The notes below the pieces were generated by a model, which saw only the letters and a list, made by a program, of their open reading frames with translations, was not told where the DNA came from and did not search any database. Position numbers and translations under genes: made by a program. Positions 1,728 through 29,186 of a stretch of 34,951 nt of DNA are shown here, one piece after another; position 1 is the first letter of the stretch, and each line of letters starts with the position of its first letter. Source of the stretch: Streptomyces fulvoviolaceus (GTDB taxonomy: Bacteria; Actinomycetota; Actinomycetes; Streptomycetales; Streptomycetaceae); NCBI RefSeq assembly GCF_000718165.1, contig NZ_JOEY01000074.1:1-34951 (forward strand), read 5' to 3'.

Positions 1728-4408
1728 TGAGCAGGATTCCACTCAAGAAACACCAGATCGACCAGAAGTCGAGTTTCCGTAAGTGGGTCGGATTCCCTGC
1801 AAGATCATCTGTGCCCCCTCAGGGTGCCCGTGGCACGATCGTGTCAGCGACTGGGTCCGGAAAAACGATCATGGCGGCCGCGAGCGCCCTGGAGTGCTTC
1901 CCCGAGGATCGGATCCTCGTGACCGTGCCGACCCTGGATCTGCTCGTGCAGACCGCCCAGGCGTGGCGGGCGGTGGGTCACCGCTCCTCCATGGTCGCGG
2001 TGTGCTCGCTGGAGAACGACCCGGTGCTGAACGAGCTGGGGGTGCGCACCACCACCAACCCGATCCAGCTCGCCCTGTGGGCCGGGCACGGGCCGGTCAT
2101 CGTGTTCGCCACGTACGCCTCTCTCGTGGACCGCGAGGACCCTGAGGACCCGATGGGCCAGCGGAAGGTGCGCGGGCCGCTGGAGGCCGCTCTGGCGGGC
2201 GGAGAGCGCCTGTACGGACAGCAGATGGACGGCTTCGATCTCGCCATCGTGGACGAAGCCCACGGCACCGCAGGGGACCTTGGCAGGCCCTGGGCGGCGA
2301 TCCACGACAACGCCCGCATCCCCGCCGACTTCCGGCTGTACCTGACCGCGACCCCGCGCATCCTCGCCTCACCCCGGCCGCAAAAAGGCGCGGACGGCCA
2401 GGAGCTGGAGATCGCGAGCATGGCCGACGACCCGGACGGGACGTACGGCGCCTGGCTGCCCGGGGCTGAACTCGGGCTCTCGGAGGCGATCGAGCGGGAG
2501 ATCCTCGCCCCGTTCGAGATCGACGTGCTGGAGATCTGCGACCCCTCCCCCGTGCTCGGGCTGTCGGAGGAGGCGCTGCGGGGCCGGCGCCTGGCCCTGC
2601 TGCAGACCGCCCTGCTGGAGCACGCGGCGGCGTACAACCTGCGCACCGTCATGACCTTCCACCAGAAGGTGGATGAGGCCGCGGCGTTCGCGGAGGCGCT
2701 GCCGAAGACCGCTGCCGAGCTGTACGTCACCGAGACCGATGACGCGACCATGGTCAAGGCGGAGAAGGAGCTCCCCGCGTCGGCGATCGACGCTGAGTTC
2801 TACGGCCTGGAGGCCGGCCGCCACGTCCCGCCGGACCGCGTGTGGTCGGCATGGCTGTGCGGCGACCACCTCGTAGCCGAACGCCGCGAGGCGCTGCGGC
2901 AGTTCGCCAACGGCATCGACGCCAACAACCGGCGCGTACACCGGGCCTTCCTCGCCTCCGTACGGGTCCTCGGGGAAGGCGTCGACATCACCGGCGAGCG
3001 CGGGGTGGAAGCGATCTGCTTCGCCGACACCCGCGGCTCGCAGGTGGAGATCGTGCAGAACATCGGCCGGGCGCTGAGGCTGAACATCGACGGCTCCATC
3101 AAGGTCGCCAGGATCATCGTGCCCATCTTCCTGGAGCCGGGCGAGGACCCCACCGACATGGTCGCCTCCACCAGTTTTCGCCCTCTTGTAGCGGTCCTCC
3201 AAGGTCTCCGCAGCCATGATGAACGACTCGTTGAGCAGCTCGCCTCCCGCGCCCTCACCCGGGGCAAGCACGCGCGCAAGGTCCACGTGAAGCGGGATGA
3301 GGAGGGCCGGATCGTCGGCGCCGACGGCGAGGGCGACGGCGAGGACCAGGAGCACGACGCCACCCAGGCCGCCGCAGAATCGGCACTGCTCCACTTCTCC
3401 AGCCCACGCGACGCCTCCACGATCGCCGCGTTCCTGCGTACCCGCGTCTACCGGCCGGACTCGCTGGTGTGGCTGGAGGGCTACCAGGCCCTGCTCCGCT
3501 GGCGGAAGAAGCACCACATCACCGGCCTATACGCCGTGCCCTACGACACGGAGACCGAGGTCGGCGTGACGAAGGACTTCCCCCTCGGGCGGTGGGTGCA
3601 CCAGCAGCGGAAGGCGCTGCGGGCCGGGGAGATGGAGGAGCGGCGCAAGGAGCTGCTGGACGCCGAAGAGGCCGGGATGGTGTGGGAGCCGGGCGAAGAG
3701 GCGTGGGAGACCAAGCTCGCCGCGCTGCGGTCGTACCACCGGGCCACCGGGCACCTCGCCCCGCGTCAGGACGCTGTCTGGGGTGAGGGCGACGCAATGG
3801 TGCCGGTCGGGCAGCATGCCGCCAATCTCCGGCGCAAGGGAGGTCTCGGGAAGGACGCTGAGCGGGCAGCAGAGCGCGCGAAGCAGCTGGCGGCGATCGA
3901 CCCGGACTGGAACTGCCCGTGGCCGCTGGACTGGCAGCGCCACTACCGCGTGCTCGCCGACCTGGTCGACGCCGACGGCGTCCTGCCCGAGATCCAGCCC
4001 GGCGTCCTGTTCGAGGGCGACGACATCGGACGGTGGCTCCAGCGGCAGAAGCAGCCGGGCACCTGGGCACAGCTGTCCACCGAGCAGCAAGACCGGCTGT
4101 CCGGGCTGGGCGTGCAGCCCGCTGAGGCGCCTTCTCCGGCTCCGGCGGCCGCGCGCGCGACGAAGGGCCTGGGCAAGGCGCAGCAGGCGTTCCAGCGGGG
4201 CGTACAGGCCCTCGCGCAGTGGGTGGAACGGGAGGGCGCGGACCGGCCTGTACCTCGCGGCCACGGCGAGGAGATCACGGTCGACGGCGAGGCGGAGCCG
4301 GTGGTCGTAAAGCTGGGGGTCTGGGTCTCGAACACCAAGGCGAGGCGGGACAAGCTTGCTCCCGACCAGCGTGACGCGCTCGTGGCGTTGGGAGTCGATT
4401 GGGTGTGA
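1727..4408 (+). CDS. Telomere-linked superfamily 2 helicase, TtrA-like, with helicase-associated repeats
   Basis: This 893-residue protein is a DEAH-type superfamily 2 helicase. Visible motifs in order are Walker A ATGSGKT (41-47), Walker B DEAH (176-179), TATPR (about 207-211), motif V GEGVDI, and motif VI QNIGRALR (444-451). After residue about 580 come three repeats of the Trp-rich helicase-associated type (for example WLEGYQALLRW, then DWQRHYRVL, then FQRGVQALAQW). Related helicase genes typically sit next to telomeres of Streptomyces chromosomes and linear plasmids; ttrA of SLP2 is the reference and was implicated in conjugal transfer. ATG 1727 is chosen because GGAGGA lies at 1715-1720; GTG 1724 is possible. 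A terminator follows at 4582. Helicase identity is firm; the TtrA role is by family and position. Confidence 0.9.
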   Translation: MSRIPLKKHQIDQKSSFRKWVGFPARSSVPPQGARGTIVSATGSGKTIMAAASALECFPEDRILVTVPTLDLLVQTAQAWRAVGHRSSMVAVCSLENDPVLNELGVRTTTNPIQLALWAGHGPVIVFATYASLVDREDPEDPMGQRKVRGPLEAALAGGERLYGQQMDGFDLAIVDEAHGTAGDLGRPWAAIHDNARIPADFRLYLTATPRILASPRPQKGADGQELEIASMADDPDGTYGAWLPGAELGLSEAIEREILAPFEIDVLEICDPSPVLGLSEEALRGRRLALLQTALLEHAAAYNLRTVMTFHQKVDEAAAFAEALPKTAAELYVTETDDATMVKAEKELPASAIDAEFYGLEAGRHVPPDRVWSAWLCGDHLVAERREALRQFANGIDANNRRVHRAFLASVRVLGEGVDITGERGVEAICFADTRGSQVEIVQNIGRALRLNIDGSIKVARIIVPIFLEPGEDPTDMVASTSFRPLVAVLQGLRSHDERLVEQLASRALTRGKHARKVHVKRDEEGRIVGADGEGDGEDQEHDATQAAAESALLHFSSPRDASTIAAFLRTRVYRPDSLVWLEGYQALLRWRKKHHITGLYAVPYDTETEVGVTKDFPLGRWVHQQRKALRAGEMEERRKELLDAEEAGMVWEPGEEAWETKLAALRSYHRATGHLAPRQDAVWGEGDAMVPVGQHAANLRRKGGLGKDAERAAERAKQLAAIDPDWNCPWPLDWQRHYRVLADLVDADGVLPEIQPGVLFEGDDIGRWLQRQKQPGTWAQLSTEQQDRLSGLGVQPAEAPSPAPAAARATKGLGKAQQAFQRGVQALAQWVEREGADRPVPRGHGEEITVDGEAEPVVVKLGVWVSNTKARRDKLAPDQRDALVALGVDWV

Positions 4409-5844: not shown

Positions 5845-5880
5845 GCACCGCCGGGACGCCACGTCCCGGCCCCCACGACT

Positions 5881-17337: not shown

Positions 17338-17673
17338 ATGGGGGATGATCCGGTAAAAGCTGCACTGCTGGTGCGGGTTGAAACCGTGGAGCTGGACGGA
17401 CACGGAGCCAGGCAAATTGGGGTCAGGACACGCGACTCCGCACCGTTGGCTGGCCGCTCGGTCGAGTTGCGTGAGGCGATCGTCCAAGCTTCAACAATCG
17501 CGCAGGATTCCCTAGCCCAAGTGCCGGAGCGGCACGGCTGGTCTGTCACCAGCATGGAGGTGGTCTTCGGGCTGACGCTGGCAGCCGAGGCCGGAGTGAT
17601 CCTTTCGAAGGCATCGGCAGAAGCATCCTTCGAAGTGACACTCACAGTGCAGCGGACCGGGAACGCGCCATGA
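17338..17673 (+). CDS. Trypco1 (trypsin-co-occurring domain 1) protein, 111 aa
   Basis: The second half matches the Trypco1 / CU044_2847 pattern: SMEVVFGLTLAAEAGVILSK then ASFEVTLTVQR. The first half supplies the usual beta-strand (LLVRVETVELD) and helix (LREAIVQASTIAQDSL). The ATG has GGGGG six bases upstream. The stop overlaps the ATG of the trypsin-like protease gene (ATGA, 17670-17673). The family is named for its constant association with trypsin-like proteases in predicted actinobacterial conflict and signalling systems; no biochemical activity is established. It most likely binds or gates the protease made from the next gene. Confidence 0.88.
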   Translation: MGDDPVKAALLVRVETVELDGHGARQIGVRTRDSAPLAGRSVELREAIVQASTIAQDSLAQVPERHGWSVTSMEVVFGLTLAAEAGVILSKASAEASFEVTLTVQRTGNAP

Positions 17674-18542
17674 CCCAACGACACTACTGGGTGCGGATCA
17701 GCGAAAAGGGTGAACACAAAGGCGCAGGATTCCGCCTGGGGCGAGGGTACGTACTCACAGCCATGCATTGCCTCAAGAATGTATCGTCGGAGGATGCCCT
17801 TCTGGACGTCGAGCTGCCGAACGGGCAGACCATTTCCGGGAGGCTGTGCGACTCACGCAGCGATGCCGATCTCGCCCTAATAGCAGTCGAAGACGCATAC
17901 TCCCAGGGTCGGTCACTGACCGCTACCACAGACAGGCCGCGTCCAAGAGCAAGGTGGAGCGGCACGTACTCTCCACCTAAAGAGAACAAGCCACTGAGCG
18001 GGTCAATAACACACACGGACGACTATCACGGAAGAGATAACATCTATTTCCAGGGAATCTATCTGATAGTGGACCAGAATTATGATGTCTTCTCGGGTTA
18101 CTCCGGAAGTCCCGTAAGCACTGATCCAGGTGTCCTCGTTCAGCCGAAGGCCTACCTGCGGCGAGAGCTTCCGGTCGTGGGAATCCTCATGGATCAGCAA
18201 TACAGTCGCGCGGACCCGAACAAGCCGAGCAACGCTCTAGTCGCTGCATCCATAGATTATGCAATGCACGTGTTCCCGCAACTCAACACCGGCTGGCTGC
18301 GCAACAAGCTGCACCATATACACCGTCCTCAAGATCAGGCAGGCAGCGGGACCTACACCGCCTCAGGCAACGATGAGACTGCACCCCCGCGGACGCCCGG
18401 GGACGTGGTCGACGGCCAGCTCAAGTCGCTGTGGCAGGCGGAGGAATCCGGCCTCATCACCTTGGTGGACGCTAAGAAGCAGCGGCGTCTGACGGTGCAA
18501 CGCCTCGGAGATCAAGCAGCTGGAGGGGACTCCGATGTCTGA
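17670..18542 (+). CDS. Trypsin-like serine protease, 290 aa
   Basis: The catalytic triad is visible: H33 in LTAMHCL, D67 in SDADLAL and S145 in GYSGSPV. There is no signal peptide or membrane helix, so it should act in the cytoplasm, unlike secreted trypsins. The chymotrypsin fold occupies about 1-225; a Pro/Thr-rich linker (about 232-245) and a short helical tail (KSLWQAEESGLITLVDAKKQ) follow, perhaps a docking segment. The gene overlaps its neighbours at both ends (4 bases upstream, 8 bases downstream). Codon use is less GC-biased than in most of the window, suggesting recent arrival. It probably works with Trypco1 and the TPR-subtilase as a triggered protease. Confidence 0.9.
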   Translation: MTQRHYWVRISEKGEHKGAGFRLGRGYVLTAMHCLKNVSSEDALLDVELPNGQTISGRLCDSRSDADLALIAVEDAYSQGRSLTATTDRPRPRARWSGTYSPPKENKPLSGSITHTDDYHGRDNIYFQGIYLIVDQNYDVFSGYSGSPVSTDPGVLVQPKAYLRRELPVVGILMDQQYSRADPNKPSNALVAASIDYAMHVFPQLNTGWLRNKLHHIHRPQDQAGSGTYTASGNDETAPPRTPGDVVDGQLKSLWQAEESGLITLVDAKKQRRLTVQRLGDQAAGGDSDV

Positions 18543-20940
18543 AGCCTCCACGCCTCGGTGGCAGAGCAGAATCGATGTCGCCGAACGGGCATTGAGAGGT
18601 GATCATCAAGCCCAGGCCGCGTTGCACGGCGAAGTACTTCGTCTCGCTGAAGATGCGCAATTAATCAACAGCCCCGCTGCCGCTGGGTACATGTCCTATT
18701 TCCTCGCCATACTCCGGGAACTGGGAGGCGCAGCGGAGGTAAGCTATTCGCACACGCTCCAGGTGATCAGTGACTGGGTGAGGAATGCGCTGGTTCCTGC
18801 GGAACATGTGTGTATGGTGCACAACCGGCTAGCCACCATTCTCGCCGAGAGCGGGAACAGCCGTGGGGCACGCGAGGCTCTCCGGACAGCCCAGGAAGCC
18901 GCTCGAACTCATTTGGAGAAAGCAACCACCCTCGCCCAGCGCAGCGTTTTAGAAGCTCGTCTCGGAAAGTGGCCGACTGCTGTGCAGTACGCCCGTCAGG
19001 CCGAGAACCTCATTCCCACAGCCGACAGTGGTGAGGTTTGGCTAGACGTACGGATGCATACGACGGCTGTCCTGTTCCGCGCCGAGCGGATGGCCGGTTT
19101 TCAGGATCAACCGTACGCCCAGATGCTGGCCGACCAGCTTGCTGAAGTATGCGACCAGCAGATCGATCGCTGGGGCGAAGACCATCCCCGGGCGCTAGAA
19201 GCTCTCGTCATGATGGCATGCGCCCACCACGGGGTAGCGGAGATGATGCGCGACTTGGACGTCATGGAGCGTGCCACAGATGTGTTGGAGATAGCAGCCC
19301 AACGGTCGTCGGCCCTACTGGGAGCCCGGCATCCCCAAGCCACATCGGCCCGCGTCGCTCTCCAGGAGGCATATCAGATCACCACGCGGTTACACGTCTC
19401 AGACCCTCCTCCGCCGCCGTATGTCCCCTCAGCGAACAGCGACACAATTGCACCTCCGCAGCTGCGTGACCCGAAGCCTCCTCCGCCTGTCGCTATAAGG
19501 GCTACCAACGGCAGCGGAGCACCTCATCGGTTCCATGAGCGGTTCGATCAGATCCAGCGATTGATGCCCGACGTGTCCCTGGCCCTCGGGCCCGACGACT
19601 CCTCGGAGTTCATCTACGAGAAGGGCGTGGTGCTCGCCCGCGACGGTGAGGACGCGCAGCGCGTGGAGGACACCGTACGCACCCACTTCACCGAGGCCAC
19701 AGGCCTGACCGGCGATCACGTGCGCCGGGTGAGTCCGGAGACCAACCGCTCGGGCATCACCCGCATCCAGGTCGGCGACCCCGCCCACGGCGACCGGCGC
19801 GGCGACCGGGCCGTCACGAACGCCCTGCGGGCCATGCGCCAGCAGGAGGACCGCGTCGGACAGCGGATGGCCAGCCGCAACCACGTGGTGTCCATCGCCC
19901 CCTCCGGCTCCTGCGACGAACCCGTGCCCGCCCCGCTCATCCGGGGCACCAACCCGGCCCCGGCCGAGACCGGTTACGACGCCGACACCGCCGTGAAGAT
20001 CCTCGTCATCGACAACGGACTCACCCACGACCACTCACTCGTCCCGCTGCTCGCCCACGTCCAGGGCGACCCCCACGGCACCGAGACCGACGACCAGGGC
20101 AACCTCCTCCAGTACGTCGGCCACGGCACGTTCATCGCGGGCATCCTGGCGTCCGTCGCACCCAACACGAACATCACGGTGCGCAACACCCTCAACTACG
20201 CCGGCGCCATCCTGGAGTCCGACTTCGGCGAGGCGCTCTTCGCCGCCGTCGACCAGAACGGTTGGCCTGACATCCTCAGCCTCTCCGCCGGCACGACCAA
20301 CGGCCGCACCGACGGCCTGCTCGGCGTCGCCGCCTTCATGCAGGAACTGCGCCAGCAGCGCACCCTGTTGGTCGCCGGTGCCGGCGACAACTCCAGCGCC
20401 ACACCGTTCTGGCCCGCCGCCTACGCCTCCCTGCCCGACTACGCGAACGTCGTCCTGTCCGTCGGCGCGCTGCGCGCCGACGGAGAATACGGCGCCTGCT
20501 TCAGCAACCACGGCTCCTGGGTGAACGCGTACGCCCCCGGCGAGCGGCTCACCAGCACCCTCACCGGCTTCGACGCATTTGTCCCGTACGTCTACCAGCA
20601 CTCCACCTACGAAGCCTGCCGGTACCACTTCACCTATCAGTGCACCTGCCAGTCCCCGCGCCACACCGGCGAGCTGAGCACTGGCGGCTGGGCCAAGCAG
20701 GACAGCGTGACGTTCGACGGTTACGCACACTGGAGCGGCACCTCCTTCGCCGCCCCAGTGGCGGCGGGCCTGGTCGCCGCTCACATGGCGGCCCACAAGG
20801 AGAGCGACCCGCGGGCCGCACGCACGCGGCTCCTGGAAGCTAACACCCAGTTTTCGGAAGTGCGCGGGACGCATGTACCCGCGCTCATCCCGCCGACCTG
20901 GCGCCCAGGACCGGTCGTGCAGCTGACGACCGGCGCATGA
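18535..20940 (+). CDS. TPR-subtilase fusion (cytosolic S8 serine protease), 801 aa
   Basis: Residues about 1-290 are TPR-like helical hairpins (HNRLATILAESGNSRGAREA, LAQRSVLEARLGKWPTAVQY), followed by a Pro-rich linker (PPPPPYVPS, PKPPPPVAI; about 298-325). From about 340 to 790 is a peptidase S8 domain with D493 (ILVIDNGL), H530 (VGHGTFIAGI), oxyanion N619 (AGDNSSATP) and S737 (SGTSFAAPVAAG). A Cys-bearing insertion (YEACRYHFTYQCTCQ) lies shortly before the serine. There is no signal peptide. Two TTA codons (43 and 139) make it a candidate bldA-controlled gene. The TPR part has moderate GC3 whereas the protease part is extremely GC-rich, suggesting domain joining. It overlaps the trypsin gene by 8 bases. 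Confidence 0.92.
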   Translation: MSEASTPRWQSRIDVAERALRGDHQAQAALHGEVLRLAEDAQLINSPAAAGYMSYFLAILRELGGAAEVSYSHTLQVISDWVRNALVPAEHVCMVHNRLATILAESGNSRGAREALRTAQEAARTHLEKATTLAQRSVLEARLGKWPTAVQYARQAENLIPTADSGEVWLDVRMHTTAVLFRAERMAGFQDQPYAQMLADQLAEVCDQQIDRWGEDHPRALEALVMMACAHHGVAEMMRDLDVMERATDVLEIAAQRSSALLGARHPQATSARVALQEAYQITTRLHVSDPPPPPYVPSANSDTIAPPQLRDPKPPPPVAIRATNGSGAPHRFHERFDQIQRLMPDVSLALGPDDSSEFIYEKGVVLARDGEDAQRVEDTVRTHFTEATGLTGDHVRRVSPETNRSGITRIQVGDPAHGDRRGDRAVTNALRAMRQQEDRVGQRMASRNHVVSIAPSGSCDEPVPAPLIRGTNPAPAETGYDADTAVKILVIDNGLTHDHSLVPLLAHVQGDPHGTETDDQGNLLQYVGHGTFIAGILASVAPNTNITVRNTLNYAGAILESDFGEALFAAVDQNGWPDILSLSAGTTNGRTDGLLGVAAFMQELRQQRTLLVAGAGDNSSATPFWPAAYASLPDYANVVLSVGALRADGEYGACFSNHGSWVNAYAPGERLTSTLTGFDAFVPYVYQHSTYEACRYHFTYQCTCQSPRHTGELSTGGWAKQDSVTFDGYAHWSGTSFAAPVAAGLVAAHMAAHKESDPRAARTRLLEANTQFSEVRGTHVPALIPPTWRPGPVVQLTTGA

Positions 20941-25142: not shown

Positions 25143-26051
25143 GTGAAAGGAACCGCGTTGATCCAATATCCTGCGTTTCGGGCGTGGCAGACGATGCAAG
25201 AGCGGTCAAATAACAGCATCGTGGCACTGGCTATCGGTGCCAGCCTCGCGGAGCAGGAGATGGCCCGGTCTACGCATCCGGCTGGTACAGCGGGCGCAGT
25301 GCTCGCTGGGGTGACGCAAGCCGAGCGGCTGAACGTGACGGCGACAGACGCGAAACGGATCTTCAAGACGGCGACAGAAGACATGGCGTTCTTGGCCATA
25401 CCGCAAGTCGTGGCCCTACACATCGAGTTGTGCGTCGGCACGGTAATCGAGTGCCAGCGTTTCCAGGGCCTCATCAGGCCGCACAACAAACCGGCTGAAT
25501 GGTGGGATGTGCCGCTCTTGGCGAAGACGGTCAGGTTCGGGGAGCCGGAGACAACGGCGGACCATCTCATGAAGTTCTGCGTAAAGCTGCGGAACACCAT
25601 CATGCACGGCGCAGGCAAGGTCGACGACAAGCTGATCCAGGCATGGAGCGGCCTTCCCAAGGCGGCAAAGACCCGCTGGGAGGCGCTGGCCAGACGCCCG
25701 TTCACGTACGCGAGGGTCGGTGCGCTGCCGGACCTCCGCTGGCCTGAGGTCATGGCCACGCTTGCGGTGACGAAGGAGTCGGCCCACGAAATCAACGCAC
25801 GAATCGGGCGGCATCTCACGCGGGAGCAGTGGGCACAAGTCATCGCCTTTGACTACCGGGAGGGTTCGCGGCACGGACGGAGGCGCTTCAACAGCAAGAC
25901 GCCGGGCAGGACGGTGGTGGACGAGAACAACCAACCCCACGCGGGCCAGGAGCGGGCTCTGCAACGGCTGCAGGGGCACGCCATCACGTACTACCGCCCG
26001 CTGGGGATGACACCCGACGAACTGCGTACGGGCCGAGACGCCATTCGTTAG
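25143..26051 (+). CDS. HEPN-like putative ribonuclease, about 302 aa
   Basis: The product has no family I recognise by name. Its central helical part contains FCVKLRNTIMHGAGKVDDKL, where R150-N151-x3-H155 is the RNxxxH signature of HEPN RNases; helices before it (VVALHIELCVGTVIECQRF) fit the first half of a HEPN bundle. The C-terminal 130 residues are basic (FDYREGSRHGRRRFNSKTPG) and could bind RNA. The start is GTG 25143 or, with the better AAAGGAA site, TTG 25158. Third-position GC is lower than in tap, suggesting separate origin. Its TAG stop (26049-26051) lies inside the oppositely oriented permuted tRNA-like sequence. HEPN enzymes often cut tRNA anticodon loops; the catalytic role here is inference from a short motif. 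Confidence 0.65.
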   Translation: MKGTALIQYPAFRAWQTMQERSNNSIVALAIGASLAEQEMARSTHPAGTAGAVLAGVTQAERLNVTATDAKRIFKTATEDMAFLAIPQVVALHIELCVGTVIECQRFQGLIRPHNKPAEWWDVPLLAKTVRFGEPETTADHLMKFCVKLRNTIMHGAGKVDDKLIQAWSGLPKAAKTRWEALARRPFTYARVGALPDLRWPEVMATLAVTKESAHEINARIGRHLTREQWAQVIAFDYREGSRHGRRRFNSKTPGRTVVDENNQPHAGQERALQRLQGHAITYYRPLGMTPDELRTGRDAIR

Positions 26052-26128
26052 ACGCGGGCGCTCTGCCATTGAGCTACTGGTGGACCGAAAATGTCCACGG
26101 ACCGGGCTCGAACCGGTATCTCCCGCAC
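26048..26128 (-). tRNA. Circularly permuted tRNA-like sequence (predicted anticodon CUA)
   Basis: Read on the minus strand, the 3' half of a tRNA comes first. It has anticodon-stem strand GCGGG (26126-26122), a 4-base variable loop, T-stem ACCGG/CCGGT (26117-26113, 26105-26101) with loop TTCGAGC, and acceptor strand GTGGAC (26098-26093). A 7-base linker ATTTTCG follows, then the 5' half: acceptor GTCCAC (26085-26080), TA, D-stem GCTC/GAGC (26074-26071, 26063-26060) with loop AATGGCA, anticodon-stem CCCGC (26058-26054) and loop GTCTAA with U33 in place. Both split stems pair perfectly between halves. Weak points are an A-C mismatch and a bulged C at the base of the acceptor, G at position 32, and no encoded CCA. 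Confidence 0.6.
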
Positions 26129-26182
26129 AGTGACGACTCCGGTGGTGAACCGGCCCATCCCGAAGATGATCGCCTCAAACCC

Positions 26183-26210
26183 ACTCTACCGAGGAACGCC
26201 GCCAACTCAA
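26183..26210 (-). promoter_or_regulatory. Putative promoter of the permuted tRNA-like RNA
   Basis: On the minus strand TTGAGT (26210-26205) and TAGAGT (26188-26183) are separated by 16 bases, a fair match to TTGAC-/TAnnnT of the main sigma factor. Transcription would start near 26176, about 50 bases before the first tRNA-like stem. Confidence 0.4.
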
Positions 26211-26252
26211 GAGCTCATCCGTCAAACAAGGCTCAATCACACTCATCCCGCA

Positions 26253-26413
26253 GGCTGTTCGGGGGCGGCTGCTACAGATCGAACTCCAGGTGCTCGATGT
26301 CCGTGAACCGGACCTCTTCCAGGCTTCCGGCGCGGCGGCCGCCGTCCTGGAAGTACACCTCCTTGAGCGCGTCGGCCGCGATCTCCCGCAGCTCCTGGTC
26401 GGTGGCGCCGGCC
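26253..26413. repeat. Direct repeat of the tpg 3' end, copy 2 (intact tpg)
   Basis: This is the partner of 24831-24993. The shared block covers the 3' part of tpg plus about 19 bases beyond its stop. Confidence 0.8.
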
Positions 26414-26829
26414 TCTTGGGCGTCGAAGAGGCGGGCGGCGTAGCGGGGCTGCAGGGCGACGGTCAGGTGCCGGATGCGGTCCTGGTCCGTCGTCCCGATC
26501 GGCGCGGTGTAGCCGAGGCGGGCGCGGGTGTCGATGACGATGCCGCCGGTACTCGCCGCCTTCTGCCGTGCCTGGGCGCGGATCTGCGGCTGCCACCGGG
26601 TCTTCACCTCGCGCTCCAGGCGGGCGGCGAGGTCGGCGCGGGGCTTCTTGATCTGGTCCTTCACGTACCGTTCCACGGTGCGCTGGGAGATCCGCAGCAT
26701 CTGGGCGACCGCCTTGGTGCCCTTGAGCTGCTTGACCAGGTAGCGCATCTGCGCGCCCGCGCTCTTGGGCGCCGGGCGGGTGAACGCCTTCTGCACCGCG
26801 GCGTCCAGGCCGTCCCCGAACACGCTCAT
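26272..26829 (-). CDS. tpg: Telomere terminal protein Tpg, 185 aa
   Basis: Length and sequence fit Streptomyces Tpg, the protein that primes end-patching DNA synthesis and stays covalently bound to the 5' ends. A helix-turn-helix-like segment is visible (KAVAQMLRISQRTVERYVK, about 39-57), then a basic helical part (RADLAARLEREVKTRW), then a beta-rich block (STGGIVIDTRARLGYTAP) and the conserved C-terminus (FQDGGRRAGSLEEVRFTDIE). The ATG follows the tap stop by 9 bases with AGGAG in front, so tap and tpg are one operon, the standard arrangement. Its presence explains how the telomere at the window's left end is maintained. A truncated second copy of its 3' end lies at 24852. Confidence 0.95.
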   Translation of the reverse strand: MSVFGDGLDAAVQKAFTRPAPKSAGAQMRYLVKQLKGTKAVAQMLRISQRTVERYVKDQIKKPRADLAARLEREVKTRWQPQIRAQARQKAASTGGIVIDTRARLGYTAPIGTTDQDRIRHLTVALQPRYAARLFDAQEAGATDQELREIAADALKEVYFQDGGRRAGSLEEVRFTDIEHLEFDL

Positions 26830-26838
26830 CGCCCGCTC

Positions 26839-29154
26839 CTACTCTCCGTTGTCGACGTCGGTGACGGTGCCGTCCTTGATGTACCGGGCGAGGTTGAGCT
26901 CGGGGGCCTGAAACTGCTCCCGCACACCCTCGCCCCACAGCACGCTCTGGGTGCCCTCCCACTTCACCAGGCCCGGGTTGATGCCGAGCTTGAAGCCTCC
27001 CGGCAGCGGCTTGCCCTCCCGGTACAGGAAGTCCAGCGGGCTCTCCCCGTCGACCGCGTACACGACGCAGTCGGAGAGGATCGCCACCGGGTACTGGCCG
27101 ACCGCCGCATGCTTGACGATCTTCCGGTGCAGGTTGATCCGGGTGCGGGAGATGACCGCCGCGCGGATGTCCGGCCGCCAGGTGGGCCGGGACAGCGCCC
27201 GCCACGGCTCGCCGGGCCGCCAGCCCTCGCCCCGGGGCCGCTCGCGCAGCTTGCCCAGGCCGCCCTTGACCGTCGCCTTGACCCCGGACACCACGATCGC
27301 CAGCTCGGGGTCACGGCTGCGGTAGCCGTCCATCGCCGCCAGGAAGTCAGCTGGCGACAGGTCCGCGTCGACACCGAGGTCGGCCATCGTGGCGAGGAAG
27401 GCGTCGCGCAGCCGGTTGTACCAGCCGTCCAGGTAGCGGCCGTTGTCGTAGCGGTACGCCTCCCGGTCTGCCTGCGTGACGACAATGCCCAACGCCTCGG
27501 CCTGGCGCAGGGTCGGCCGCACCCACGCCTCGATCGGCGCGACGTCGTAGCCCAGCTCCACCGCGTACGCCACGGTGGGCGTCGCGTACCAGGCCGGCCC
27601 CTCGGGGCGCTCGCCCTTCGGCGTGAACGGGCTGGGCAGCAGCGAGCCGTCCAGGTCCGCCCACTTGTCCTTGGCGACCTTCACCCTCGACAGGTCGACG
27701 TGGGACAGGTCGACCAGCCAGCTTCCCGGGAGCTTCTGGTCGAACACCGGGTTCGTGACGTTCACCGGCTCGCCGAGGCCGACGGTCAGCCCGTTGGCGC
27801 CCGCCGCGAAGGCCATGTTCACGTCGATGCCCACCAGGTGCCGGAGGGTGCATTCGCCGTCGGTGAGCGGGCGCGCCCAGTCGTAGGCCTCCTCGAACAG
27901 CTTCTCGCCGGGGCCGCGGATGTGGAAGCGCGGCAGGTCCGCCAGGAGCGGGTGCCCGTCAGGGGCCTCGCACGGCGCGCAGTCCATCGGGTCCTTGCCC
28001 AGACTGCCGGGGTTGTGCTCGGAGTGCCGCTTGCCGTCGGCGTCGGGCTCGGAGGCGCGGGTCGGCGGGTGCAGCGCGGTCATCAGCTCCAGGCCGGTGA
28101 CGGCGGTGGACCCGCGCGGCGTCATCACCCGGGACGCGAACACGCCCATCAGCCGGGCGAGCTCAGCCGGCGGGAGCTGCCCGGCCTCGCCCCAGTGGCG
28201 GGTGTCGAGCGCGTGCCACGACGGGATGCACAGCTGGACACAGGCCCGCTCCGAACCCGTGGCCGGGCGGTAGATCCGCGCCCACGGCCCGAACCCGCGC
28301 TTGGTCAGCTTCCATTCCGCGCGCACCAGCTGCTTGATGACCTTGTGGCCCTCCGGGAGCCGCCCGGCGAGCCGCTCTTGTTCGGTGAGGGCGACCGGCA
28401 GGCCGTAGCGCTCCAGCGCGGACTGGGTGAGTACGAGCAGTGGGTCGGCGTCCTTGCCCGGCCCGGACAGCTTCGGCTGCCCGAGCCTGGCCTCCTTCAG
28501 GGTCCAATCGACCAGGGACGGAACCGACTTGGCGGGCACGTCCAGGATCAGGCCGCCGACGCAGTACGCAAGGACCTGGCCGTCGGCGTCGACGTCGACG
28601 ACCGCGAGCGGACCGTTGGCGAAGCGCGGGTCCGTGCCATCGGCCGGGGTGTTCGCCGGGGCGGCCCTCCGCGCGGCCGGGCGGCGTGACGTCGGCGATG
28701 GCCTGGGGGTGCGGGCCGGATGCGACTCGACAGTCGGAGCGGCGGTGTTGTCGGCGGGACGGGAGGGGGTGTCCTCGGAATCAGTCGTGGTCGCGGCCTC
28801 GGAGGCCGGAGCCGTGGACAGGGTCCGCGTTTCCGGAGCCGAGGCGGGGGCGCTCGTGAATGTCGTGGGAACGGCCGTGTCCTGTACGGGCGTTGCGGCG
28901 TTGGCATCAGAGGGGTAGAGCTCCGCGAGCTGCTTGAGCAGACGGGCGTATGCCTCGCGCTCCTTGCCCCGCGGCTCGGTCGCCTTGGTGCTGGACTCCC
29001 AGCCGCTGACGGTCGCCCGACGCACCTCCAGGGCTTCGGCCACCTCATCCAAGGTCAGGCCGTGCGCGGTGCGCAGCCGCTTACGCTCCGCCGGCGGCGG
29101 CAGCGGAGACCGGGACGCAACCAGCGCGTCGATCCGGTCGAACAACTCGGACAT
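26839..29154 (-). CDS. tap: Telomere-associated protein Tap, 771 aa
   Basis: Tap binds telomere 3' overhang DNA and recruits Tpg. The N-terminus carries an XRE-type helix-turn-helix (about 23-60: RKRLRTAHGLTLDEVAEALE, then RRATVSGWES), a Pro/Thr/Ala-rich linker (about 85-165), and the long conserved body (AVVDVDADGQVLAYCVGGLI; HLVGIDVNMAFAAGANGLTV; INLHRKIVKHAAVGQYPVAI; GGFKLGINPGLVKWEG). ATG 29154 is chosen because GGAGGT is six bases upstream; an upstream ATG at 29178 lacks a site. A TATGCT -10-like element and three CGTAC repeats lie just upstream. Length is close to known Tap proteins. Confidence 0.95.
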   Translation of the reverse strand: MSELFDRIDALVASRSPLPPPAERKRLRTAHGLTLDEVAEALEVRRATVSGWESSTKATEPRGKEREAYARLLKQLAELYPSDANAATPVQDTAVPTTFTSAPASAPETRTLSTAPASEAATTTDSEDTPSRPADNTAAPTVESHPARTPRPSPTSRRPAARRAAPANTPADGTDPRFANGPLAVVDVDADGQVLAYCVGGLILDVPAKSVPSLVDWTLKEARLGQPKLSGPGKDADPLLVLTQSALERYGLPVALTEQERLAGRLPEGHKVIKQLVRAEWKLTKRGFGPWARIYRPATGSERACVQLCIPSWHALDTRHWGEAGQLPPAELARLMGVFASRVMTPRGSTAVTGLELMTALHPPTRASEPDADGKRHSEHNPGSLGKDPMDCAPCEAPDGHPLLADLPRFHIRGPGEKLFEEAYDWARPLTDGECTLRHLVGIDVNMAFAAGANGLTVGLGEPVNVTNPVFDQKLPGSWLVDLSHVDLSRVKVAKDKWADLDGSLLPSPFTPKGERPEGPAWYATPTVAYAVELGYDVAPIEAWVRPTLRQAEALGIVVTQADREAYRYDNGRYLDGWYNRLRDAFLATMADLGVDADLSPADFLAAMDGYRSRDPELAIVVSGVKATVKGGLGKLRERPRGEGWRPGEPWRALSRPTWRPDIRAAVISRTRINLHRKIVKHAAVGQYPVAILSDCVVYAVDGESPLDFLYREGKPLPGGFKLGINPGLVKWEGTQSVLWGEGVREQFQAPELNLARYIKDGTVTDVDNGE

Positions 29155-29186
29155 GGGCACCTCCTGTCTCTCAAGCATAGCGCGAA

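Follow-up and report, generated by a model that had tools for sequence, protein, structure and literature searches.

What is a transfer RNA (tRNA) with its halves in reversed order doing in a Streptomyces genome? The question is raised by a stretch of 34,951 nucleotides (nt) of Streptomyces fulvoviolaceus (contig NZ_JOEY01000074.1, positions 1 to 34,951; hereafter the window), where an initial annotation placed a circularly permuted tRNA-like gene with a CUA anticodon at 26046-26135 of the minus strand. We find that the sequence belongs to a conserved and structured RNA, convergent with a gene whose product is a predicted HEPN ribonuclease (RNase). That RNA and protein form one module is a conclusion we hold with high confidence, and the presence of the conserved gene-RNA pair in several actinobacterial lineages suggests an undescribed toxin or anti-phage module with a tRNA look-alike as its RNA partner. 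The elements of the locus are as follows, with the basis of each in brackets.

26044..26175, minus: conserved non-coding RNA, 132 nt in the window copy (covariance model R1 and its matches)
26132..26174, minus: 5' domain, helix P1 (26169-26174 with 26132-26137) enclosing P2 (26156-26168) and P3 (26139-26153) (RNAalifold on a MAFFT alignment of six; pair counts)
26139..26153, minus: P3 hairpin, anticodon-arm-like, either 5 base pairs (bp) around a loop of 5 nt or 4 bp around the 7-nt loop UUCACCA (loop table of 17 loci)
26054..26126, minus: permuted tRNA-like domain; its closing helix P4 (26122-26126 with 26054-26058) is the equivalent of the anticodon stem (compensatory changes in P4)
26101..26117, minus: T-arm with T-loop UUCGAGC (alignments)
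26080..26098, minus: acceptor-position hairpin, 6 bp with a 7-nt loop, hypervariable (alignments of 17)
26060..26076, minus: equivalents of U8-A9 and D-arm GCUC..GAGC (alignments of 17)
26044..26053, minus: 3' tail, overlapping the last codons and the stop of the convergent gene (sequence)
26183..26188, minus: -10-like box TAGAGT, ending 7 nt upstream of the RNA (TAnnnT in relatives)
26205..26210, minus: -35-like box TTGAGT, 16 nt before the -10 box (consensus match only)
25143..26051, plus: gene of the predicted HEPN protein, 302 amino acids, unannotated, the family start probably nearer 25158 (homologues, motif, structural comparison)
25590..25607, plus: codons of the RNTIMH motif, residues 150-155, of the Rx4H type and predicted RNase active site (R, N and H invariant)

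A conserved RNA with a permuted tRNA-like domain

The tRNA parts that the initial annotation listed are indeed present on the minus strand, in the order P4 5' strand, variable loop, T-arm, acceptor hairpin, UA, D-arm, P4 3' strand, and they occupy about 26054-26126. In the window copy, GCGGG pairs with CCCGC over 5 bp at the anticodon-stem position and is followed by a variable-loop-like AGAT, the T-arm ACCGG-TTCGAGC-CCGGT and the acceptor-position hairpin GTGGAC-ATTTTCG-GTCCAC (6 bp, 7-base loop); then come TA, the D-arm GCTC-AATGGCA-GAGC, a G and the closing CCCGC. The interval itself had to be extended: comparison of six loci placed the start of the conserved block about 40 nt earlier, so that the annotated tRNA-like part lies inside as the 3' two thirds of an RNA of about 132 nt, while the separate three-way-junction domain at its 5' start had escaped notice.

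A plasmid search found a homologous locus on the linear plasmid NZ_CP109439 of Streptomyces sp. NBC_01483 (L023), which has the RNA and the convergent gene in common with the window as one block. The product of that gene retrieved 32 homologous proteins, leading to loci in S. hokutonensis (L027) and on three IMG/VR contigs (L028-L030), the same three that a second search of viral contigs returned. In all six close loci the RNA lies on the opposite strand, immediately beyond the gene's stop codon. The permuted layout is more than chance, because it is kept in NZ_CP109439 and in L027-L030, with compensatory changes such as GCGGG/CCCGC to GUGGG/CCCAC.

A protein profile run against 392 genomes of the window's genus added five remote relatives, and beside each of the five genes stands a full-length match to R1 (35.8 to 42.4 bits), a covariance model built on the six close loci only. 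Seven further loci lie on plasmids of Mycolicibacterium arabiense and Rhodococcus and in five other genomes of the class; R1 matches beside the gene in six of them, at 61.6, 61.1, 57.0, 52.5, 50.3 and 26.0 bits, with 11.9 for the runner-up in the same sequence. Only L076 has the gene and no R1 match. Altogether, the RNA adjoins the gene on the opposite strand in 17 of the 18 gene loci examined, all of them found via the protein, at protein identities down to about 22%. The 3' ends of gene and RNA range from an overlap of 8 nt to a distance of 46 nt in the ten loci measured, where the gene end of L023 was taken without its last codon and stop. In L036 (1378-1899, minus) the HEPN gene is split over two reading frames; the adjoining RNA is still a full-length R1 match.

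How widespread is the pair? The profile reaches 144 protein clusters at E <= 0.001, and among the 120 listed the named ones come from Streptomyces, Micromonospora, Mycolicibacterium, Mycobacteroides and Nocardia. The gene is sparse, with 6 of 392, 2 of 245 and 6 of 394 genomes carrying it, the window's own counted each time. Searched as DNA in 295 same-genus genomes, the RNA gave, apart from the window's copy, short matches of 20-59 nt in 14 genomes, which we do not count as relatives, and a phage collection searched with P0078 gave no match. At E <= 0.01, R1 matches 365 of the 392 same-genus genomes. These counts are uninformative on abundance, because many listed matches cover model positions 51-123 only, as a tRNA match in L001 does, and because the same search gave no match of the expected strength in three genomes (G300, G041, G011) where the locus search finds the RNA. 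Stretches of tandem tRNAs match both R1 and the Rfam model of the bacterial Y RNA YrlA at about 28-39 bits, so a score near 30 bits proves nothing alone.

Covariation supports the fold. From the MAFFT alignment of six, RNAalifold predicts P1, P2, P3, P4, the T-arm and the D-arm; the acceptor hairpin is not predicted and is only partly paired there, its two helices having 62.5% and 41.7% of their cells paired. Compensatory changes occur in 7 of 35 pairs across the six loci, two each in P1, P4 and the acceptor hairpin and one in the T-stem, and in P4 they rise from two of its five pairs in six sequences to four in 17. The alignment of 17 fitted to the model, which is biased towards the structure, has 94.7% of cells paired, compensatory changes in 28 of 35 pairs and a covariation score of 0.594; shuffles give 0.205, and slid versions stay at or below 0.10. 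When the 17 are aligned by MAFFT without fitting, RNAalifold recovers the helices of P3, T-arm and D-arm, in which 8 of 14 pairs have compensatory changes; P1, P2 and P4 were not recovered. Folding of single sequences lends the structure poor support: of its 35 pairs, 10 are present in the minimum free energy fold of the window RNA (z -0.68), which does not support it, and agreement ranges from 0/34 pairs (L027) to 32/32 (L074).

The covariation in P4, the split anticodon stem, bears out the proposal of one molecule with permuted halves that is joined at the acceptor and open at the anticodon. The acceptor hairpin has two compensated pairs among the six loci; its sequence and length change freely from locus to locus, it is missing from L032, L033 and L036 (3 of 17), and 79.5% of its cells still pair in the alignment of 17. 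The D-stem is paired in all 17, with one pair varying in two of them. Much of what makes a tRNA core is kept: the variable loop reads AGAY in 14 of 17 loci, the T-loop UUCR in 13, and the D-loop has its GG in 15. Bases of the RNA can be taken, on our own assignment, as equivalent to tRNA positions such as U8, A14, 15-48, 18-55, 19-56 and 26-44. In L028 and L029 the GG of the D-loop is lost and the second base of the T-loop is changed as well, which looks like a joint loss of the elbow contact from both sides.

The 5' domain has a tRNA likeness of its own: taken as 7 nt long, the loop of P3 follows the pattern YUNRYNR at every one of the 17 loci, resembles an anticodon loop and may be offered to the enzyme as such. 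ARAGORN calls tRNA-Ala(CGC) in 3 of 16 loci and uses P3 as the anticodon arm in both calls drawn (L073, L079); we rejected these cloverleaves, which would break the covarying P1. In the window, ARAGORN, whose reach for permuted tRNAs is uncertain, and Rfam at gathering cut-offs reported nothing. A passing resemblance to a cobalamin riboswitch was dropped, there being no such Rfam match.

Every one of the 17 loci has a TAnnnT box that ends 7-14 nt upstream of the RNA, compared with 30 such boxes at 5865 background positions; the close loci among the 17 are not independent. This promoter-like box is conserved, and the RNA is presumably transcribed. Hairpins with runs of T, read from the sequence, lie 3' of the RNA in L034, L036 and L074.

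The predicted HEPN protein and its surroundings

What does the convergent gene encode? The R, N and H of its RNxxxH motif are invariant in 19 aligned relatives, and this arrangement agrees with the HEPN motif as defined in PMC3710099, Rx4-6H with a polar residue after the R. Structural comparison ranks HEPN proteins first, with HepS among the nearest folds; the lists (VIA-align) name no AbiF or PrrC structure, an absence that proves nothing. A sequence search of the PDB gave two weak diguanylate cyclase matches and no HEPN chain, and Pfam Abi_2 did not match the window protein or two relatives at E up to 1. The HEPN fold is supported but not proved.

Matches to defence families surround several of these genes. 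PADLOC, run on ten hand-picked neighbours, matched six: PD-Lambda-5_A three times, PglX/methyltransferase once (L082) and Ppl twice in one locus (L081). The PD-Lambda-5_A-like proteins lie near the HEPN gene at L085 8691-10220, L086 10053-11396 and L080 9900-11492, all on the minus strand. Four neighbours were negative in PADLOC; of these, Pfam assigns a GmrSD C-terminal domain to the one in L087 and identifies the one in L088 as a transposase. In M. arabiense the HEPN gene follows genes annotated as cyclases and a Pycsar effector. In L074, some 0.6 kb separate the HEPN match from an RNase P RNA gene (477-885, plus, 283.8 bits).

The window itself encodes, on the minus strand, the terminal protein Tpg (26272-26829, E 1.4e-87) and the telomere-associated protein Tap (26839-29178, E 0), so that it probably comes from a linear replicon. 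Its positions 7-393 are 78% identical to the very end (2-389) of the linear plasmid NZ_CP109439, and the contig therefore probably starts at a telomere. NZ_CP109439 shares window 1749-4356 as well, a segment that adjoins the RNA there and lies about 22 kb away from it in the window. We considered tap and tpg as fixed partners of the RNA and rejected the idea, as neither is found in the 10 kb of NZ_CP109439 around it. Elsewhere in the window, a gene at 17670-18542 (plus) that matches the PADLOC models LmuA (9e-9) and RT-Protease overlaps a subtilase gene at 18535-20940 (plus; Pfam 1.7e-16, PADLOC IetS 2.1e-4), and the two are possibly another defence pair.

A second kind of permuted tRNA-like RNA came to light downstream of DUF7873 (PF25283) genes, in four Streptomyces loci (L038, L047, L052, L059) and in phages (L093-L096), where the stretch 3' of DUF7873 is unannotated and 409-581 nt long. 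R1 matches twice each in L093 and L095 and once each in L094 and L096, and YrlA matches twice beside DUF7873 in L052; elsewhere the second domain was seen by eye only. By tblastn, DUF7873 occurs in 73 phage records, with tRNA genes nearby in all four viewed.

How the pair might work

The permutation makes both strands leave the body at the position of the anticodon loop, and the RNA therefore looks like a tRNA cut in that loop. Such a design fits a mimic better than a tRNA: the elbow and the upper anticodon stem are kept and the cleavable loop is removed. The likeness to an anticodon-nicked tRNA, already seen in the initial annotation, may be the key to function. We propose that the enzyme would recognise tRNA-like bodies, and that the RNA would bind it as an uncleavable decoy and keep it silent in the manner of an RNA antitoxin. 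Phage infection or loss of the element would remove or displace the RNA, and the freed enzyme would cut RNA, probably tRNA, so that translation stops. Binding, restraint as the direction of control, tRNA as the target and the anti-phage role are what we infer beyond the pairing; taken jointly with it, they make up the account that we favour, with reserve.

The strongest competitor, though a good deal less probable, turns control around: the RNA would be an essential cofactor (guide, scaffold or bait), as CRISPR RNA is for Cas13, and a phage factor acting on it would switch the enzyme on. Against such an activator or sensor, we see no variable segment of the spacer type, and even the hypervariable acceptor hairpin mostly keeps its pairing. 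The closeness of the two 3' ends could also mean a cis-acting element and nothing else, an antisense RNA or terminator region on the 3' end of the HEPN messenger RNA; we regard this as improbable, because neither would need a conserved tRNA core, a covarying 5' domain or a -10 box at a fixed place. Improbable to a slightly higher degree still is a divergent Y RNA of the YrlA type working with a Ro60/Rsr protein. Its topology is similarly permuted, and with permissive settings YrlA (RF02553) is the best Rfam match, over its full length, at 17.8 bits (E 0.8; gathering cut-off 69 bits). This score is weak evidence, because the same model matches ordinary tRNAs in the window genome. Moreover, scores reach at most 35.7 bits among the seven HEPN-linked loci tested, all below the cut-off, and the two best (L078, L035) span the tRNA-like part only. 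The 5' domain pairs within itself and not with the 3' end; a YrlA-like outer stem was rejected, as its 5' strand pairs upstream in P1. Finally, the Ro/Rsr domain TROVE has no match in the window genome and is absent from 7 of the 11 gene-bearing genomes (6 of 10 with the RNA); in the other four it always lies on other contigs than the gene.

What of the tRNA gene that the initial annotation saw? Both halves are present and pair, yet it is hardly credible that the transcript matures into a functional suppressor tRNA whose anticodon is CUA: this triplet is what the convergent gene's TAG stop codon (26049-26051) reads on the opposite strand, the acceptor hairpin varies or is missing, a conserved 5' domain is added and a predicted HEPN gene is the neighbour in nearly every gene locus. 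Debris of two tandem tRNA genes, or chance, could draw on the matches that tandem tRNAs give with the YrlA and R1 models; of all explanations this is the one to which we give least weight, because across lineages the whole layout is conserved and covaries and the partner gene stays the same. On this point the initial annotation, which had argued against fragments of two tandem tRNAs, was right.

One could speculate further, with little confidence, that the pair is a guard system. Phage tRNA-repair enzymes (ligase, kinase) or other tRNA-aimed factors would act on the nicked-tRNA look-alike and so release the HEPN RNase, and phages would answer with permuted tRNA-like RNAs of their own, for example those beside DUF7873 genes in the vicinity of phage tRNA genes. 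The RNA partner would then be antitoxin and bait at once, a kind of immune sensing of which we found no description.

Relation to known systems

To our knowledge, few modules are known that combine a toxic HEPN RNase with a controlling RNA, and in the open-licence literature searched we met none that pairs a HEPN protein with an RNA mimicking tRNA. HepT of HepT-MntA, a type VII toxin-antitoxin system, is silenced by a nucleotidyltransferase protein and not by an RNA, and the PDB sequence search found no sequence relation between HepT and the window protein. Closer in motif are PrrC, RloC and HepS of Gifsy-1, which are RNases with an Rx4-6H motif, the motif type of the window protein. HepS cuts tRNA, and we know of no tRNA-mimic RNA accompanying any of the three. 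PrrC and RloC cleave the anticodon loops of tRNAs (PMC3710099). The permuted tRNA genes of algae and archaea share the reversed order of halves, and they give rise to standard tRNAs via circularisation and cleavage (PMC10085705), whereas in the window RNA acceptor and anticodon are not conserved.

Two systems come nearest. YrlA, described as a permuted tRNA mimic, has in the Rfam alignment the same tRNA-like domain with the T-arm before the D-arm and a closed loop between them. YrlA, however, has a terminal stem of its 5' and 3' ends that binds Ro, while the window RNA has a self-contained 5' three-way junction with P1 internal and the 3' tail free, and in place of a Ro/TROVE partner nearby there is the predicted HEPN protein. 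AbiF (Abi_2), a type III-like system, also sets a gene for a HEPN-like protein beside a structured non-coding RNA. In AbiF the RNA represses the HEPN toxin, and such modules have been linked to the origin of Cas13 (PMC12373285). In type III toxin-antitoxin systems the RNA neutralises its toxin by binding it, and the same source defines them by RNA repeats that stand as an array ahead of the gene for the toxin. In the window there is a single RNA, downstream and convergent, which mimics tRNA and has no repeat array; the protein does not match Abi_2, and the abiF RNA motif of Rfam gave no match in 25700-26500 at E up to 10.

We therefore file the module outside both, since it lacks the score, terminal stem and Ro partner of YrlA as well as the protein family and RNA of AbiF. 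Its topology is like that of YrlA and its logic like that of AbiF, and we regard it as a new variant of the HEPN-plus-RNA module. An actinobacterial family with a permuted tRNA-mimic RNA would add a new way of controlling an RNase and point to tRNA as its target, and it would show that the permuted tRNA architecture recurs outside the Y RNAs.
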